This document shows positions 19,791-55,296 of a DNA stretch of 64,000 bases, piece by piece. The notes beneath the pieces were generated by a model. It did no database searches. It was not told where the DNA came from and saw only the letters and a list, made by a program, of their open reading frames with translations. The position numbers and the translations under genes are program-made. The stretch comes from Flagellimonas oceani (lineage in GTDB: Bacteria > Bacteroidota > Bacteroidia > Flavobacteriales > Flavobacteriaceae), in the NCBI RefSeq assembly GCF_011068285.1, contig NZ_CP049616.1:1096501-1160500 (forward strand), in the 5' to 3' direction. The stretch's first letter is position 1. Each line of letters starts with the position of its first letter.

Positions 19791-20882
19791 ATGGCAAATG
19801 AATCAAGGAAAATGGTGGTATTGGGAGCTGGGGCTTCAATAGGATCCAAAAGGTATCCCATTAACTCATCTCTCGATCAACTAAGGGACAGGATGCCTTC
19901 GGCAGAAAACTTTTTTTATGATCTGTTCAAACTTAATAAGACCGAAAATCACAATGAGCGTTTCCTGAATTTTTTAGGATTGACCTACGAGGCCCTTTAT
20001 GATGTAATCGTAAGGGCATGGAACATAAATAAGGGCAATAACGATTTTGATCCCAATGGATGGAGGGGAGTAAATATAGAAGAAGTCATGACTTTTTTTG
20101 ATGTAGGCTCGAATATGTTCGACCAGGACTCCCAGGAAGGGAAACTTTATCGCCAGGCGCAAAAATCATTGTTGGACTTTATGTTTCCACTAATTCCAAT
20201 GATCTGCGAAGGACAGCATTGCGAATACTTGCTCAGGGTATTTTTTGGGTTGGAACCCAAAGATACCGTCATCTCATACAACTGGGATACGATCGCTGAG
20301 TACACCTTGGCAAAAGCCAAAGCCAATCAAATAAGGAATTATGCTAAGCTGATGCGGTCGGATAAAATTGAACCAAGGATGTATAGAAACACGGGATTAC
20401 TATTGAAGTTGCATGGATCGTTTAATTGGATGGTTTGTAAGAATCCAGAGTGTCCATCGTTTGATACCATTAAGCCCCCTTTTCAAAAGAACAGGTATAA
20501 GCTTATCGGCTTGAATGAATCGTATACCTGTAAGGATTGTGGCAGCAATAATCTTAGACCCCTCATTGTTCCCCCAGTGAGCAACAAAATGATACACAAA
20601 GACGAATTTTTGAAAAATCAATGGCTCATCGCCAGGGAAAAATTATTGGATACCAATGAACTTATCTTCATAGGATATTCTTTTCCTCCAACAGATTATT
20701 ACAGTGAATGGCTGTTTAGACAGATTTATTTTATCGAAAATCGGAATGATATAAAAATCACTGTTGTCAATCCGCAGTACGGAAAAAGAGGGTCAGCTGT
20801 GACAAAAAGATATGACACTATCTTCAATGACTTTGAAATTGAAAGCTATAAAACATTAAAGGATTTTGCGGAAAGAAATTAA
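19791..20882 (+). CDS. SIR2-like NAD-binding protein with zinc ribbon
   Basis: The 363-residue protein has SIR2 landmarks: VVLGAGAS at residues 9-16, SYNWDTIAE around 162-170, KLHGSFNW with His208 as the likely catalytic His, and FIGYSFPPTD near 293-302. Two CxxC-type pairs (C216/C221 and C247/C250) could bind zinc. SIR2-like effectors in bacterial defence (ThsA, DSR, Avs/SIR2-APAZ and others) destroy NAD+ on phage infection. It starts a three-gene AT-rich block, followed at 130 bases by the PD-(D/E)XK-like gene. NAD+ hydrolase activity is inferred; protein deacetylation remains possible. Confidence 0.82.
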   Translation: MANESRKMVVLGAGASIGSKRYPINSSLDQLRDRMPSAENFFYDLFKLNKTENHNERFLNFLGLTYEALYDVIVRAWNINKGNNDFDPNGWRGVNIEEVMTFFDVGSNMFDQDSQEGKLYRQAQKSLLDFMFPLIPMICEGQHCEYLLRVFFGLEPKDTVISYNWDTIAEYTLAKAKANQIRNYAKLMRSDKIEPRMYRNTGLLLKLHGSFNWMVCKNPECPSFDTIKPPFQKNRYKLIGLNESYTCKDCGSNNLRPLIVPPVSNKMIHKDEFLKNQWLIAREKLLDTNELIFIGYSFPPTDYYSEWLFRQIYFIENRNDIKITVVNPQYGKRGSAVTKRYDTIFNDFEIESYKTLKDFAERN

Positions 20883-21011
20883 TTTCCATTCTCTTGTGTT
20901 ACCCTTTTTGAAATGACAAGTATTCAAATTATAGGAAACCGGGAGCGAAAAGCTCATGTAATTTTAAGATATTTAAGTTGGATTGGAAATCTTGGATAAC
21001 TAAAAAATAAA

Positions 21012-22172
21012 ATGAAAGCCATCAACACATCGGAAAACGTTATTTCACGGATTAATTCCAATGTATTTTTTAAGGAATTTACGTTTGCCAGAAATGATTT
21101 TACTGATTTGGATTCAAAACAAAAACTTGAATTCTCCGATAATGTAATCTGGCTGGGCAATATATTTTTAATTTTTGAAATAAAGGAAAGGAATGCGAAG
21201 GATGATTCTGATGATTCCAGTTGGTTTGAGAATAAAATTTTAAACAAGGCTGTTAAACAGGTCAAAAGGACCCATACGTATTTAAAAAAATACCCTAACA
21301 TACCCATTTTCAATGAAAAAGGGCATAAAAGGAATATTTCTGAGGCCGATTTTAGCAGGATCCAATCAATCATCGTTTACTCCCCAAGCGATAACTTCAG
21401 TGAATCCCAAAGGTTCATGAAGTTTTACAGAAGTAAGGAAATTGGGTTAATTCACCTATTTCATTCAGAGGACTATTATTGGATATGTAAATACCTTATT
21501 ACTCCTGCAGAAATAGATGAGTATTTGATATTTAGGGAGGAATTTTATGATGCACATCCCAAACTATTGAATGAACTGCCGGAACAATATATCCTCGCCC
21601 ATTTTTTTGAAACACTGGATACCTCTGAAATCAAATTGGAACACATGGACAATTTCAAAAAAGTAACCATGGATTCAAGCAAGTTTAATCTCTCATATCT
21701 AATTGATAATTTTAACAAAAACATTAAACTATTACAAGGAGAGACCGATTATTACCCAATCATTGCTGAAATTGCAAAGCTAAATCGGGCCGAACTGACG
21801 GAATTTAAAAAAAGGTTTGTCCTTACAATTGAAAAATGTAGGGAGGAAGGTGTCACGATTCCCTACCGAATCTATATTCCAAGGACAGATTGTGGATTTG
21901 TCTTCGTACCTCTGATCAAAAGAGCTTCCTGCCATTGGAAGACCGCTTTGCGTAATTTCACCTATGCCCAAAAGTATGATCAAAAAGCCCATCGCTGTGT
22001 TGGATTGGTGATGTTCGAAACTGAAATCAAAGGAAAATTGGTTTTGGATATGTACTGGGCTTTTTTAGAAGAAAAGTGGGTATATGATGCTGCAATGGAA
22101 AAATTGCTTTCCGAAAACTTCCCGTTCCGTGAGGCAAAATTTAAAAGGTTGGACAATAGATACTTGGAATAA
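21012..22172 (+). CDS. PD-(D/E)XK nuclease-like protein of unknown family
   Basis: The N-terminal part has a restriction-endonuclease-like core: Glu40, Asp43, then Glu56-x-Lys58 in IFLIFEIKER, and a following helix with Gln83 (KAVKQVKR). This is the usual order of motifs in the PD-(D/E)XK fold. The C-terminal two-thirds is not recognised. It is 386 residues, lies between the SIR2-like and HEPN-like genes, and is AT-rich like them. It could be a nuclease effector or sensor. The assignment rests on motif reading alone. Confidence 0.5.
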   Translation: MKAINTSENVISRINSNVFFKEFTFARNDFTDLDSKQKLEFSDNVIWLGNIFLIFEIKERNAKDDSDDSSWFENKILNKAVKQVKRTHTYLKKYPNIPIFNEKGHKRNISEADFSRIQSIIVYSPSDNFSESQRFMKFYRSKEIGLIHLFHSEDYYWICKYLITPAEIDEYLIFREEFYDAHPKLLNELPEQYILAHFFETLDTSEIKLEHMDNFKKVTMDSSKFNLSYLIDNFNKNIKLLQGETDYYPIIAEIAKLNRAELTEFKKRFVLTIEKCREEGVTIPYRIYIPRTDCGFVFVPLIKRASCHWKTALRNFTYAQKYDQKAHRCVGLVMFETEIKGKLVLDMYWAFLEEKWVYDAAMEKLLSENFPFREAKFKRLDNRYLE

Positions 22173-22204
22173 AATTATTAGACAAGTCCTAATGGCAATT
22201 GAAG

Positions 22205-22846
22205 ATGATGAACAAAAAAGATATAGCTCCCAAGAAAGTCTACGTTAAAATCGATAATTCCGAGAGGTATTTGAAGGTGGCCAAAGAACTCTATGATAAG
22301 GCCAAACACCCCGAACAGGCCGAAATATATTACGCTCCGTTTGTCCTTTTTTGTGCAACCAGTGTGGAATACCTATTGAATGATATTTTTATAGAATACT
22401 CAAATAGATATTTTTCTGGCACCGATCAAAAAATATATGCGGAATCCTTTATGACTTTGGGCTTGAGAGCCAAGCTATTGACCTTTTTGCCCATTGTAAG
22501 TGGCAATGCATACAAGTGGGATCTGGATTCCTTTGAGTATAAGACATTATGTGGGATGATCAACAAAAGAAATCAAATAGCCCACGGAAAGGATTTTTAC
22601 CAAGGTTTAAGTACCAAGGATGACAATGACGGTGGTTTTACCATTGATGTCACAGATTTGAAAGAGAAAGCCATCCTGCTGCTTTCCAAAAATGAGTGCA
22701 ACAATTATTTCAAGGCCTTTGAAAGTTTTATCACTTTGTATTCCTTGATCGAAAATAACAAACTAAAGGAGGGTAAGATGGTTTTGCCCATAGTGGAATC
22801 CAAACTTAAAACGGAAACCATACAATTTTCCACCAGAAAGACATAA
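22205..22846 (+). CDS. HEPN-like protein
   Basis: A mainly helical protein of about 213 residues with an R-x4-H motif (NKRNQIAHG, Arg122/His127 from the ATG at 22205), the signature of HEPN RNases. The frame is also open to a TTG at 22199. HEPN proteins often act as RNases or as toxins in defence modules. Only 32 bases separate it from the PD-(D/E)XK-like gene, so the two are likely co-transcribed. Not every HEPN-like RxxxxH is catalytic, so RNase activity is inferred. Confidence 0.6.
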   Translation: MMNKKDIAPKKVYVKIDNSERYLKVAKELYDKAKHPEQAEIYYAPFVLFCATSVEYLLNDIFIEYSNRYFSGTDQKIYAESFMTLGLRAKLLTFLPIVSGNAYKWDLDSFEYKTLCGMINKRNQIAHGKDFYQGLSTKDDNDGGFTIDVTDLKEKAILLLSKNECNNYFKAFESFITLYSLIENNKLKEGKMVLPIVESKLKTETIQFSTRKT

Positions 22847-49387: not shown

Positions 49388-50395
49388 ATGGCAACAGACA
49401 GAAACGAACATTTACATAAGGTTTTAAAAACCCACGAAATAAACAAGTTGGAAAACTTGGATAAGTTCATTGCAAAGAAGAATCAAGTGAAAAATGCTTT
49501 GAATGAGAAGTTCTCTGAAGACAAAGCTTCCAATTGTATGGATTCTGGTTCATATGCTAAACATACTGCAATAAACACAAAGTTTGATATAGATTGTTGC
49601 ATCCCATTCAGGAAACGGGAAAAAGACTCAGATAAGGGTTACAGTAGTCTTTCAGATATGTTTGAGGATGTCTACAAGTACTTAAAAAATGAGTACACTG
49701 AGGAAGATGATGACATAGAAAAAGATGACGTTAGAAAACAGAAGGTTTCGATTGGGCTAAAATTCAATATTGATGGCGAGGAATTCGAAATGGACGTAGT
49801 TCCAGGTAGAGAAAGACCGAGCAATAATGATTATGGAAATAACAATACTGATTTAAGCTTGCATATCCATCCACCGAATAGGTCAAAGAAGGAGGTGGAC
49901 GATGGTAAGACCCGTATCAAAACAAACATCAAAAAACATCTTGATTTGCTATCAGGCAGCAGCAGAGTGCATGAAAGGAAAGTAGCAAAATTGCTTAAGG
50001 TTTGGAAAACTGAACGAAAAAATCAGAATGGAGGAAAGCTGATCAAGTCCTTCATGATGGAACTCTATACTAAAGAAGCTTTTGACCAAGCCGATGAAAT
50101 ACCGAATGGATTGTGGGGGAAGGTTAAGATGGTAATGAACCATATTGTAGATAATATTACTGAAAATGACCTAGTGGATCCTGCAAACTCCAGTAATATT
50201 GTTTCAGATTCCATGAGTGACACGGCTAAATCTGATACCAAAAGCGGCATGAAAAAAACAATAAAGGATACTGACGAGGATTCAGATAAGATAAAGGAGT
50301 ATTTTCCAATTAATGAAGAGTATGATGACGAGGATGACGATTCTAATTCAAAAGCCTCTTCAGTGTCAGTTCTTAGCACGAGCAAGTTTGGATAA
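49388..50395 (+). CDS. CD-NTase (CBASS-type nucleotidyltransferase)
   Basis: 335 residues with the pol-beta nucleotidyltransferase signature GSYAKHTAIN-x-KFDIDC: Gly54-Ser55, then Asp67 and Asp69, with a third acid at Asp136 (EFEMDVVPG). This fits the cGAS/DncV-like nucleotidyltransferases that make cyclic oligonucleotides on phage infection. The C-terminus is a long acidic tail (about residues 255-325) ending in SKFG. The final Gly fits the rule that the Cap2 protein forms a conjugate with the CD-NTase C-terminus. The product nucleotide cannot be predicted. It starts an operon with the fused E2-E1-JAB gene. Confidence 0.82.
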   Translation: MATDRNEHLHKVLKTHEINKLENLDKFIAKKNQVKNALNEKFSEDKASNCMDSGSYAKHTAINTKFDIDCCIPFRKREKDSDKGYSSLSDMFEDVYKYLKNEYTEEDDDIEKDDVRKQKVSIGLKFNIDGEEFEMDVVPGRERPSNNDYGNNNTDLSLHIHPPNRSKKEVDDGKTRIKTNIKKHLDLLSGSSRVHERKVAKLLKVWKTERKNQNGGKLIKSFMMELYTKEAFDQADEIPNGLWGKVKMVMNHIVDNITENDLVDPANSSNIVSDSMSDTAKSDTKSGMKKTIKDTDEDSDKIKEYFPINEEYDDEDDDSNSKASSVSVLSTSKFG

Positions 50396-52535
50396 AGAAA
50401 AAAGCGAAATCCTCGAAAGGTTAAATAGGTTAATTGGAAAAGATGAGGATATTACAATACTTGAGAAAATTCGTCTAGATGGAAATTACTTTTCCGGGAA
50501 AATAGAGGTCAGTTTTCTAAATGAATTATTGTCCTTTCAAATTAAAGTCCCGAATCACTACCCACTAACCCATCCCAACTCTGACAACATCTCAATCATT
50601 TTTAAAAATGAGGAATATGTTGGTCTAGAACATATCAATTTGGATGGATCTGTTTGTTTTCACCCAGATAAAGATGATGATTTTGACAGAAAATTTATTT
50701 ATGAACTAAAGTGCTTAAAACAATGGATTCGGGACTACTACATAATTGGAAAACAGGATGAAAATTATTCATATCTCGTTCACACCACCGAAAAGGGTAA
50801 GGTAAACAGGCTTTATTTCACGAATACTGAAAACAAGTTTGACAAGAATTCATTCGGTGAATTTGACTATTCAATCTTTACAGATGAAAAATATGGTGAT
50901 TCGAAAATTCCTGTAAAGAAATTCTTCAGACTAGGTTTTCGTAATGGAGAGGAAGATAAATGGTCAAAAACCTTTAGGGATGAACTGAAGAGTAGAACTT
51001 GTAAAAAGGGGATTTACTATTTCATAGAAGATGAACCTATAAGGGAGTCTTCAAGGGGAAGAAAAGGTGTTGAAACCTGGGATGAGCTGAACACGTTTCT
51101 TTCCGATGTATTCATTGATTATCTACACACTGGACTCAGAAGGGGTTTCGGGAAAAGTTTTTTTCATGAGAATAATCTTCTTTTTTTAATCGGATATAGA
51201 ATTCCCAATCTGGAAAACTATGAGGAACATTGGGATCTAATCAGAATTTCAAAAAGAAATATTCCAGTAGAAAGTCGAAGAATTCCAAAACAAGAGCGTG
51301 AACAGCTGAACAAGATGCATGAGACTACTCTAAAAAAAAGCAAAATCTTGTGGGGAACTACAGAGAATATAGATTATACAAGGTTTTTCGGAAGAGGCAA
51401 GTTAAATGATAAGATTACAAATTCTCATATTCTGATTATTGGCTGTGGTGCACTAGGTAGCTCTTTGGCCGAAATATTGGCAAGAGGAGGAGTTAAAAAC
51501 CTTTCATTGGAGGATTTTGACAATATAAGGGGCGGAAATTTATGCAGGGCAAATTATCATCTATACGATATGATTTACCAAAAAACGGAGCGTTTGACTA
51601 AAAGACTTAAAGCCATTTCCCCTTTTTTGAATACTACTTCGATCGACTTTAAATTAAATAGTATCGATTTAAGGAAAGTTAAGGAAATATTGGACAAATA
51701 TATCGACGTTATTTTCGATTGTTCAGCTGATCCGGAGGTTACATTCATTTTGGATAAGGTTGGTTTCAAAGGAGATATATTCAGTTTGGCTATTACAAAT
51801 AATGCCAAATCTTTAGTATCTATCACAGGGCCAAATTTGACGAAACAGGCAAGAAGTTTGTTTGCCTTTCTTGAGAACTCCGAACCAACGTATATTGAGG
51901 GAACCGGTTGCGGTTATCCAACATTTGAAGCTAACTATAATGACATAAACTATCTTCTGCATACCGGATTGAAAATCATAAATAACAACTATTCTAAAAA
52001 TAGAAAGAATGAAACCTTTGTCATTAAACCAGAATTTGAAAGCGTACCGTCAATTGATATTATAGAATACAATTTTTCATTTAGTGATAATCAAAACAGT
52101 TCTATACATATTCCTATGGGTCTTCTAAATGAAATAGAAGAAATCACAAGATTTCATTACCCAAATGAGTTTGGTGGGGTTTTCGTTGGTTATAGAACAG
52201 ACCGTGATTTTATAATTACCGATCTCCTTCTCCCTGATAAATTTGAAAATGGAAGGGCAATATTTATTAGGCATCCAGGCAGTCTAAATCAAAGGTTAAG
52301 TGAAATTCATAGAACCACAAATGGAAAAATAGAATATTTGGGCGAGTGGCACTCGCATCCAGACGGTCCCACAAAACCAAGCAAAAGAGATTTTAATGAG
52401 ATGAAAAAAATTGCAAGAGATAAAAAAATCAGCATTGCGCAACCTTTACTTATGATCGTGGCTGTTTCTATGGAATCATTTTCGAATGATTTCTATATAT
52501 ACAATAAATCGAAATTAAATAGATATGAGCTCTAA
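50313..52535 (+). CDS. Fused E2-E1-JAB protein (Cap2-Cap3-like)
   Basis: A 740-residue frame with three parts: an E2-like domain (about residues 30-150, catalytic Cys115 in DGSVCFHPD), an E1/ThiF adenylating domain (IGCGALGSS at 376-384, probable catalytic Cys533 in EGTGCGYP), and a C-terminal JAB/JAMM protease (Glu619, His680-x-His682, Asp693 in WHSHPDGPTKPSKRD). In type II CBASS, Cap2 (E2-E1) attaches the CD-NTase to targets and Cap3 (JAB) releases it; here both activities are on one chain. The frame overlaps the CD-NTase by 83 bases. Internal ATGs (to 50334) or a TTG at 50388 may be the true start. Confidence 0.82.
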   Translation: MKSMMTRMTILIQKPLQCQFLARASLDKEKSEILERLNRLIGKDEDITILEKIRLDGNYFSGKIEVSFLNELLSFQIKVPNHYPLTHPNSDNISIIFKNEEYVGLEHINLDGSVCFHPDKDDDFDRKFIYELKCLKQWIRDYYIIGKQDENYSYLVHTTEKGKVNRLYFTNTENKFDKNSFGEFDYSIFTDEKYGDSKIPVKKFFRLGFRNGEEDKWSKTFRDELKSRTCKKGIYYFIEDEPIRESSRGRKGVETWDELNTFLSDVFIDYLHTGLRRGFGKSFFHENNLLFLIGYRIPNLENYEEHWDLIRISKRNIPVESRRIPKQEREQLNKMHETTLKKSKILWGTTENIDYTRFFGRGKLNDKITNSHILIIGCGALGSSLAEILARGGVKNLSLEDFDNIRGGNLCRANYHLYDMIYQKTERLTKRLKAISPFLNTTSIDFKLNSIDLRKVKEILDKYIDVIFDCSADPEVTFILDKVGFKGDIFSLAITNNAKSLVSITGPNLTKQARSLFAFLENSEPTYIEGTGCGYPTFEANYNDINYLLHTGLKIINNNYSKNRKNETFVIKPEFESVPSIDIIEYNFSFSDNQNSSIHIPMGLLNEIEEITRFHYPNEFGGVFVGYRTDRDFIITDLLLPDKFENGRAIFIRHPGSLNQRLSEIHRTTNGKIEYLGEWHSHPDGPTKPSKRDFNEMKKIARDKKISIAQPLLMIVAVSMESFSNDFYIYNKSKLNRYEL

Positions 52536-53358
52536 GGTAAATATTCGAAAACTGTTTGGTGGACTACAAAATCAAATGGTTGCCCAATTAAATACAAATA
52601 GGGAGTTTATTGGGCATCCGAGTTCAAAAGGAGACTCACTGGAAAATACATGGATTGAATGGTTGCGAAACTATTTACCCAATAGATATTGCGTAGACAA
52701 AGCAATAATTATAGACTCAAAGGGCCAATTAAGCCATCAGATTGATTTGGTAATTTACGATCAGACATATACGCCATTTGTATTTAAACAAAATGGTATT
52801 TTCTACATTCCTGCAGAAGGAGTTTATGCCGTATTTGAGGTAAAACCCGAACTGGATAAAGGCAATATTGAATATGCTGGCGAAAAAATTGAAAGTGTTC
52901 GAAAGCTTTTTAGGACTTCCACAAATATGATTGATAGAGGTAAGTTATACAATCCAAGGACTTTGACTAAAATACTGGGTGGGATTTTAACCATAGAAAC
53001 TTCAATTGCAGAGATGACCATTGAAAAGCATTTAAAGAATCTAAAGGGGTTAAAAGCAATTGATATCGGTTGTGCAGTAAAAAACAAAAGCTTTTATGTT
53101 GATTTTTTAAAAGATGACAGTGTTTTTAACATAGGACATGATACGGTACTTACCTTGGAAGAGCACAATGATATTTTTGTTAAATTCTATGAGGCTAGAA
53201 AGGTTGATTCTATTGAGTTTAGCCAAAAAAATAATTCATTGGTTACTTTTTTTCTTCAGTTAACCAGATATCTCCAGCAAAGCATTGGAACAGTGGCTGC
53301 GATAGATTTATCTGAATATGCTAAATCTATCAATTTTGATATTGATGATGATTTATGA
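52525..53358 (+). CDS. PD-(D/E)XK nuclease-like protein (DUF6602-like)
   Basis: 277 residues with the restriction-nuclease-like core Glu40, Asp74 (HQIDLVIYD) and Glu105-x-Lys107 (AVFEVKPEL). The helical C-terminal half is unrecognised. The overall form resembles DUF6602, often found in defence loci. It overlaps the E2-E1-JAB gene by 11 bases and the ChaC-like gene by four. It is the most likely effector of the system, although the nucleotide-binding SAVED or CARF-type sensor of other CBASS nucleases is not visible. Confidence 0.65.
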   Translation: MSSKVNIRKLFGGLQNQMVAQLNTNREFIGHPSSKGDSLENTWIEWLRNYLPNRYCVDKAIIIDSKGQLSHQIDLVIYDQTYTPFVFKQNGIFYIPAEGVYAVFEVKPELDKGNIEYAGEKIESVRKLFRTSTNMIDRGKLYNPRTLTKILGGILTIETSIAEMTIEKHLKNLKGLKAIDIGCAVKNKSFYVDFLKDDSVFNIGHDTVLTLEEHNDIFVKFYEARKVDSIEFSQKNNSLVTFFLQLTRYLQQSIGTVAAIDLSEYAKSINFDIDDDL

Positions 53359-53900
53359 AAAAAAATAGTACGATCTTAATATTTGGATATGGTTCGATTA
53401 TTTGGGACAACGAAGATTTAGAGCCCTCGGAAATAATTGACGCAAAACTTAATGGAGCCCACAGAAGCTTTAACAAGAAATCAATTGTATCAAGGGGAAC
53501 CAAGGAGAACCCCGGTTTAGTTTTGGGTTTGGAATATGGCGGTGATTGTATTGGAAAACTTATTCGAATACCAGAAGAAAATTATAGTAAGGTTTTAGAA
53601 AGAGAAGGAGGATATATCCCTAAGAATACGGGAGAATCGAATGAGTTGGAAGTGGTTAATCTACTGAATCAAAAAATTGAAAACTGTATTGTATTTTTCC
53701 CGAATCCCAAAGGACGAAATTACCTTGAACCTAACGTTGATTTAGAAGAAAAAGCTAAAATTATTCTTAAAGGTGAAAAAGGGAAAAGAAGTGATTCCAA
53801 AGAATATTTACGTGAAATAAGGAAATATCTAATTCATAATGAAATAGTTGATGAACATGTGGAAAAACTTTACAAAATGGTATTTGATGCCCTTCAATAA
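53355..53900 (+). CDS. ChaC/GGCT-like gamma-glutamylcyclotransferase
   Basis: 181 residues with the cyclotransferase signature FGYGSIIW near the N-terminus, GAHRSF, and LEREGGY with Glu84 as the likely catalytic Glu. The family cyclises gamma-glutamyl groups, from glutathione (ChaC) or from gamma-glutamyl-amine links (GGACT type). The ATG overlaps the nuclease-like gene by four bases, so it belongs to the operon. It could be an effector that destroys glutathione, or an enzyme that removes isopeptide-like adducts. Neither is shown. Confidence 0.7.
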   Translation: MKKNSTILIFGYGSIIWDNEDLEPSEIIDAKLNGAHRSFNKKSIVSRGTKENPGLVLGLEYGGDCIGKLIRIPEENYSKVLEREGGYIPKNTGESNELEVVNLLNQKIENCIVFFPNPKGRNYLEPNVDLEEKAKIILKGEKGKRSDSKEYLREIRKYLIHNEIVDEHVEKLYKMVFDALQ

Positions 53901-54283: not shown

Positions 54284-54835
54284 ATGGCAAAAAAAGTTTC
54301 GAGTTCAAGGACTAGGTCTACTAAAAAAACGGGAAAGCACAAAGAGGGTAAGCATCGACATAAATCCGTAGAATCCCATCGTGGAACGGTCCGAATCAAG
54401 ACAAAGGTATCTCCGCAGCAGCTTGATCTCGACGAGGCAATTAAGCTGGACATCTTACATTTCCTTCCACGAACTAGTGTTAAATCCCCAACCTATAACT
54501 ATTCGGATATTAAACCCCTGTTAAGCTTTTTGGGCTATAATCAGGAAGATTCTTCAAAGCTCTTGGAGGCAAATCCCAGTACGCTATCTCGATGGAAAAA
54601 TTCTGACAAGCCCGTGGATATTGGTAAAATAAGGTCTAAGGTGATTTTGGATATCGATGAGGTCATTGCCAAGGGTGTGAGGCTTTTTGGTGGTGAGGAA
54701 TCCTTTCAAGACTGGTTGAATACCAATAATTATGCGCTAGGAGATGTAAAGCCCGTTGATCTTTTGAAGGATGTATACTCCATCGAACTCGTGGAGGAGG
54801 CCATTGATGCTATGTCATGGGGTAGTTACTTATGA
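54284..54835 (+). CDS. Xre/MbcA/ParS-type antitoxin (DUF2384)
   Basis: 183 residues: a basic N-terminal tail, a helix-turn-helix (LLSFLGYNQEDSSKLLEANPS to LSRW), and a C-terminal DUF2384 region (VRLFGGEESFQDWLNTNNYALG, KPVDLL, VEEAIDAM). This domain binds the RES toxin and covers its active site. Its last bases overlap the RES ATG by four. Confidence 0.85.
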   Translation: MAKKVSSSRTRSTKKTGKHKEGKHRHKSVESHRGTVRIKTKVSPQQLDLDEAIKLDILHFLPRTSVKSPTYNYSDIKPLLSFLGYNQEDSSKLLEANPSTLSRWKNSDKPVDIGKIRSKVILDIDEVIAKGVRLFGGEESFQDWLNTNNYALGDVKPVDLLKDVYSIELVEEAIDAMSWGSYL

Positions 54836-55296
54836 AATATTATCGATTGTTCGAGGATATTTCTTCAAGGTCGCCTCTGGGTTTTGGTATTGGTGGTGCA
54901 CGGTGGAACCACAGTGGTATTCCATTGATATATGTATCAAATTTTTCTTCGATAGTTATCAATGAGATATTAAGTATTAAGGGGAGTGTAGTGGCGAAAT
55001 CCAACTGGATTTTAGCAACTCTGGAAATAGATGAAAGTAGCATACTTTTTCTTCGAGATACTGACATGCCCAAAGACTGGAATCATAGGCCATCAGGAAA
55101 GTCAACCAAAGATATTGGGTCGAAATGGGCAGCAGACCAAAAAAGTGTTTGCTTGGGAGTTCCATCTGCCAGATTGAACTTGAGTGCGTATCCAACAGAG
55201 CACAACTTGCTCATAAATCCCCTCCATCCCGATTTCGGGAAGGTCGTTTCAATGGAAAAATCCGAGTCCTTCAGTTTCCAACTCAACAAGAATTAA
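54832..55296 (+). CDS. RES-domain toxin
   Basis: 154 residues with RES features: an early FEDISSRSPLGFGIGGARWNHSG (Arg and Ser), LIYVSNF, and a later EHNLLINPLHPDF. RES toxins act as NAD+ phosphorylases, with the mycobacterial MbcT as the best-known case. The last gene before the T-arm-like sequence, it may mark the right edge of the element. Confidence 0.85.
   Translation: MKYYRLFEDISSRSPLGFGIGGARWNHSGIPLIYVSNFSSIVINEILSIKGSVVAKSNWILATLEIDESSILFLRDTDMPKDWNHRPSGKSTKDIGSKWAADQKSVCLGVPSARLNLSAYPTEHNLLINPLHPDFGKVVSMEKSESFSFQLNKN

Follow-up and report, generated by a model that had tools for sequence, protein, structure and literature searches.

A probable type II CBASS operon of Flagellimonas oceani with a NucC effector, a fused Cap2-Cap3 and a ChaC-like fourth gene

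Gene content and effector of the operon

The present analysis concerns a four-gene operon within a 64,000-nucleotide stretch of the Flagellimonas oceani genome (NZ_CP049616.1, positions 1,096,501 to 1,160,500; hereafter the window, whose own numbering is used below). All four open reading frames (ORFs) lie on the + strand, with successive overlaps of 8, 11 and 4 bases (codons checked). With a probability of roughly 0.85, we assign the operon to type II of the cyclic oligonucleotide-based antiphage signalling systems (CBASS), namely to a NucC kind that responds to cyclic triadenylate (cA3), with Cap2 fused to Cap3 and a location in the neighbourhood of a conjugative element's transfer genes. 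The four genes are:

49388..50395, + strand: CD-NTase (cyclase), 335 aa; SGSY at residues 53-56, DxD as D67/D69, C-terminus ...STSKFG
50388..52535, + strand: Cap2-Cap3 fusion (E2-E1-JAB), 715 aa from TTG 50388; E2 Cys90, E1 Cys508, JAMM E594/H655/H657/S665/D668
52525..53358, + strand: NucC (DUF6602), predicted DNA endonuclease effector, 277 aa; D74 ... E105-x-K107
53355..53900, + strand: ChaC-like protein, 181 aa, with the fold of gamma-glutamyl cyclotransferases; start overlaps the nucC stop (ATGA)

A program-made ORF list places the start of the fusion gene at ATG 50313. We prefer TTG 50388, since the fused proteins of two related loci (L002 and L003) begin at the equivalent TTG (716 aa) and since the window protein is entered in the database with 715 aa.

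The third protein matches the PADLOC model PDLC00745, "Endonuclease (NucC)", at 1.4e-92 and the solved NucC structures 6uxf and 6p7o at an E-value of about 3e-41, and the PD-(D/E)XK motif D...E-x-K is present in all 14 NucC-bearing operons (8 by pattern and 6 by eye from the alignment; one relative, L025, is without NucC). On these matches we identify the DUF6602 protein as NucC, which is known as a CBASS effector activated by cA3 (PMC10419184; PMC8682760; these and all papers cited below are represented by excerpts of their text), and the likely effector of the operon is thereby settled. As in type II CBASS, the effector gene is adjacent, nucC lying directly behind the fusion gene, and its gating by a cyclic nucleotide is expected by homology.

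The first protein carries the GS and DxD motifs of CD-NTases (SGSY...DID) and matches Pfam SMODS at 2.2e-8 and the PADLOC model Cyclase PDLC00803 at 1.6e-67. Its XGSX motif reads SGSY, SGSF or SGSW in 15/15 operons, that is, in the window and 14 relatives (L026 by eye). According to a 2026 paper (PMC13424991), cyclases with SGSY, TGSY and SGSL make cA3 and those with QGSI make cyclic AMP-AMP-GMP (cAAG), and the SGSY of the window cyclase therefore leads us to predict cA3 as its product. The C-terminal residue, at which Cap2/Cap3 operons have Gly or Ala for conjugation (PMC10097602), is Gly in 14 of the 15 operons (window ...SKFG).

Several points weigh against this assignment. The only solved relative of the window cyclase by sequence is E. 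coli CdnC (6p80), and the match to this cA3 cyclase is weak (E 4.7e-4). The cyclase of L002 ends in FGY and not in FG. Furthermore, the window NucC is about 30 residues longer near positions 195-230 than solved NucC, a stretch that is common to 9 of 13 relatives and not present in L020-L022 and L029, and its dependence on cA3 is predicted rather than proven.

An earlier note on this DNA, made from the letters only, had described the four genes as a CBASS-like operon with a single-chain E2-E1-JAB protein, an unusual nuclease and no familiar effector, and had consequently called the effector logic open. The genes are real and overlapping, and both the CBASS-like nature (PADLOC Cyclase and NucC matches, motifs and the synteny described below) and the single chain are borne out. 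The view of the effector, however, has to be revised, as the nuclease is the familiar NucC and as the cyclase carries a motif that goes with cA3.

Cap2-Cap3 fusion and conserved gene order

In the second protein, the Cap2 fold spans residues 4-563 and a Prok-JAB match (3.5e-14) accounts for the Cap3 part. Among the 76 fused proteins found, 37 were aligned, and in all 37 the E2 residue C90, the E1 residue C508 and the JAB residues E594, H655, H657, S665 and D668 are invariant. In these families, the listed E2, E1 and JAMM residues (numbering of the 715-aa form) are the catalytic ones. Judged from its domains and residues, the single-chain E2-E1-JAB protein is thus a Cap2-Cap3 fusion with the catalytic residues retained. 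Separate cap2 and cap3 genes, the usual though non-defining form, are not what the window has. A further 75 proteins match the fusion at E<=1e-100, 72 of them over the full length, and since a PADLOC model covers its full length, the fusion is already catalogued. No stretch encoding it was found in the viral contigs searched, none of the 234 plasmid records had one place covering 80% of the protein, and a search of the open-access literature for CBASS with E2-E1-JAB found no paper.

For comparison, 14 relative loci of 10-19 kb each were collected (2 from a genome-contig scan, 7 from 395 genomes of the class at E<=1e-30 and 5 from 397 genomes of the family). The cyclase gene is followed by cap2 in all 14, and the order CD-NTase, Cap2, JAB, NucC is found in 13; at the remaining locus, L025, neither JAB nor NucC was found. 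Cap2 and Cap3 form one chain in four relatives (L002, L003, L018 and L019) and are separate in nine (L026 included); in L020, one of these nine, just one stop codon divides the two within a shared frame. Since fused and separate forms both occur among syntenic relatives, the fusion represents a joining of genes inside a known layout, and one syntenic family shows separate Cap2 and Cap3 alongside the fused form.

The nearest NCBIfam model for the fusion is 6A-MBL cap2_3 (NF058523, 4.2e-44), which, going by its name, likewise describes Cap2 and Cap3 in one protein. This raises the possibility of a ubiquitin-like system of the 6A type in place of CBASS, with the fusion acting on a non-cyclase target. 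The window protein, however, reaches 151 bits and stays far under the model's cut-off of 320, and this candidate was rejected on that score; in addition, CD-NTase and NucC are the neighbours in the 13 loci with conserved order, and the cyclase nearly always ends in Gly. We regard a 6A-type system as very improbable and retain the assignment to type II CBASS.

The relatives further display some arrangements of their own. In L026 (4821-6089), JAB (Cap3) and NucC share one open frame of 422 aa, a different fusion that joins the isopeptidase to the effector. Five of the 14 relatives have a second CD-NTase (PADLOC Cyclase PDLC00803, 1e-25 to 4e-72) within the operon or next to it, which would make these CBASS with two cyclases:

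L021, 10153-10941: second CD-NTase, directly behind nucC
L022, 9147-9935: second CD-NTase, directly behind nucC
L023, 6500-7306: second CD-NTase, directly behind nucC
L028, 6339-7409: second CD-NTase, directly behind nucC, N-terminally extended by about 80 residues
L025, 4945-6018: second CD-NTase, N-terminally extended by about 80 residues

The ChaC-like gene

The fourth protein has a ChaC fold within its 181 aa and differs from ChaC2 and the yeast glutathione-specific gamma-glutamyl cyclotransferase in sharing only 25-28% identity with them and in belonging to a family of its own. Counting the window's protein, this family comprises 25 members at E<=0.001 and is small by a word-based search, which reaches only relatives that share exact words with the query. 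Residues R83-E84, of which E84 is the candidate catalytic Glu, are invariant in 25/25 members, yet the pairwise alignment sets E84 one residue off position 83 of ChaC2. The gene is the only ChaC found in the window's genome.

Two negative results speak against a regular place in the operon: the gene is found in none of the 14 relative loci, and three partly overlapping draws of 395, 397 and 395 genomes (E<=1e-30 in the first, E<=1e-20 in the second and third) contained no ChaC beyond the window's own genome. We therefore conclude that it is not a core part. Searches of viral contigs gave 85 pattern stretches, none of which was confirmed, and the 337 plasmid records found all had less than 60% identity (best listed 35%).

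A different picture emerges from the contigs on which the family occurs. For at least 9 of 23 other members, the contig equals in exact size a contig that bears NucC or the fusion (21485, 4667, 2846, 88758, 3986, 6054, 2990, 123307 and 66374 bp), the comparison covering the best 120 of 1455 NucC matches and the fusion matches at E<=1e-100, with the longest contig standing for each 90% cluster; one further member (P0026) without a size value was left out. At least three sizes (88758, 6054 and 123307 bp) match both the NucC and the fusion lists, both sides of the 21485-bp match carry the name Aureibaculum sp. 2210JD6-5, and all three sides of the 123307-bp match that of Maribacter sp. 2-571. As a control, the sizes were displaced 1000 times, by 1-500 bp up or down; the matches then averaged 0.19 and never exceeded 2. 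On the other side of the balance, the remaining 14 members are without a size match among the entries compared, two of them on contigs that, at 876 and 792 bp, could not accommodate nucC as well, and the evidence for contig sharing is indirect in that it rests on equal contig sizes and not on contig sequence.

In a tree of 73 fused proteins, those linked to ChaC stand in four places (the window with 88758; 21485 with 66374; 123307; 6054). The tree is displayed pruned to the nearer proteins, and as ChaC absence is known for three leaves only, gains or losses were not counted.

For the fourth gene alone, one could suppose that it is a passenger with no tie to the operon, lying by chance at a site behind nucC where the mobile element is prone to insertions. 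Besides its absence from the relatives, this would fit the variable content behind nucC in the 13 NucC-bearing relatives: two short ORFs each in L002 and L018, a second CD-NTase in L021, L022, L023 and L028, a 495-aa ORF 141 bp on in L024, and no same-strand ORF within 200 bp in L003, L019, L020, L026, L027 and L029. In the window, a toxin-antitoxin pair of the RES/Xre kind (54284-55296) comes next. Against a passenger speak the exact size matches, the overlap of the chaC start codon and the nucC stop, and one matching contig of just 2846 bp, on which nucC and chaC would lie within about 1.5 kb of each other. We consider the passenger explanation unlikely. The most fitting reading of the ChaC-like gene is that of an accessory, recurrent yet optional, in the variable slot behind nucC, and we lean, if only somewhat, towards a working accessory. 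The pairing of nuclease and cyclotransferase pointed out in the earlier note is accordingly real in the window and, by equal contig sizes, recurrent, but optional; its expectation that all four genes are neighbours in related genomes holds for the first three and, at the relative loci collected, fails for the fourth.

In the relative L002 (8997-9881), nucC is followed by a 131-aa ORF that overlaps it by 14 bases (ParB-like by eye, no Pfam match) and then by a HAD_SAK_2 gene (5.1e-28).

With regard to function, we regard enzymatic activity of the ChaC-like protein as a gamma-glutamyl cyclotransferase as the most likely case; its action on small molecules may support or supplement killing. That it represents a true CBASS component, a cyclotransferase "Cap" working with NucC as a mobile, optional module, is a tentative proposal to which we give not quite even odds. 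One could also speculate that it acts as a second effector which depletes a gamma-glutamyl metabolite, glutathione in particular. Neither of the glutamate-cysteine ligase families PF04262 and PF04107 was found in the window's genome at E<=0.001, so that home-made glutathione by the standard route is unlikely; the genome contains 4 matches to ATP-grasp genes of the GSH-S_ATP type, as well as a gamma-glutamyl transpeptidase. A second effector of this kind appears rather doubtful to us.

A published description of the four-gene layout, which the earlier note had named as a ground for refuting it, was not found in the open-access literature searched. No link of ChaC or a cyclotransferase to CBASS was found there either, most subscription papers lying outside the search, and a query for ChaC with CD-NTase and defense returned only titles on other subjects. 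The operon is of a known kind; its ChaC-like gene belongs to a small, testable orphan family whose members appear to sit on the same contigs as NucC CBASS. If chaC indeed matters for defence, a small-molecule enzyme would join a pathway whose described parts have so far been a tag, a signal and a killer; if ChaC is a CBASS component, cyclotransferase chemistry would be tied to cyclic-nucleotide immunity, and this in a host with no glutamate-cysteine ligase found in its genome.

Proposed mechanism and relation to known systems

Whereas gene identities, motifs, gene order and the exact contig-size matches of ChaC are observed, we infer every biochemical step of the following scheme from homology. 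Upon infection, the E2-E1 part of the fusion would activate the C-terminal Gly of the CD-NTase and link the CD-NTase to a target, from which the JAB part could remove it again. The CD-NTase would then make cA3, and NucC, having bound cA3, would degrade DNA, so that the infected cell dies. With Cap2 fused to Cap3, tagging and untagging activities would be supplied 1:1.

The operon shares with type II CBASS (CD-NTase, Cap2, Cap3, effector) all four functions, the same order in the relatives, the C-terminal Gly of the cyclase and the catalytic residues, and differs in having Cap2 and Cap3 in one chain and in the additional ChaC-like gene. The NucC CBASS of E. coli MS115-1 is of type III, with CdnC and HORMA/TRIP13. 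NucC is also used by the type III-B CRISPR system of Vibrio metoecus (PMC8682760). The window shares the effector family with both of these systems, the cA3 signal being known there and predicted here, whereas its NucC has about 30 additional residues compared to solved NucC and is placed under putative Cap2-Cap3 control. The type II CBASS of B. cereus consists of a cyclase, Cap2, Cap3 and Nuc-SAVED/Cap4, with cA3 shown as its signal (PMC11153139; PMC13424991). As far as these excerpts go, it resembles the window operon in its SGSY cyclase, DNA-cutting effector and Cap2/Cap3 control, with cA3 only predicted in the window, and differs in that its effector is Cap4 instead of NucC and its Cap2 and Cap3 are separate.

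Genomic surroundings

The operon adjoins conjugative-element genes of the Bacteroidota type, with DUF4138 (TraN), TraM and TraG between 40744 and 46977. Its GC content is 33-35%, compared to 51-53% over the neighbouring transfer genes. Directly downstream, the pair at 54284-55296 consists of a RES toxin and an Xre/MbcA/ParS antitoxin.

A possible second defence locus is located at 19791-22846, following a gene with DUF5712 and one for a coupling protein. It encodes a SIR2-like protein (PF13289, 4.7e-5, just below its cut-off; PADLOC SIR2, 5e-7), followed by the ORFs 21012-22172, with no Pfam or PADLOC match, and 22199-22846, with no match in PADLOC, the one collection it was compared with.
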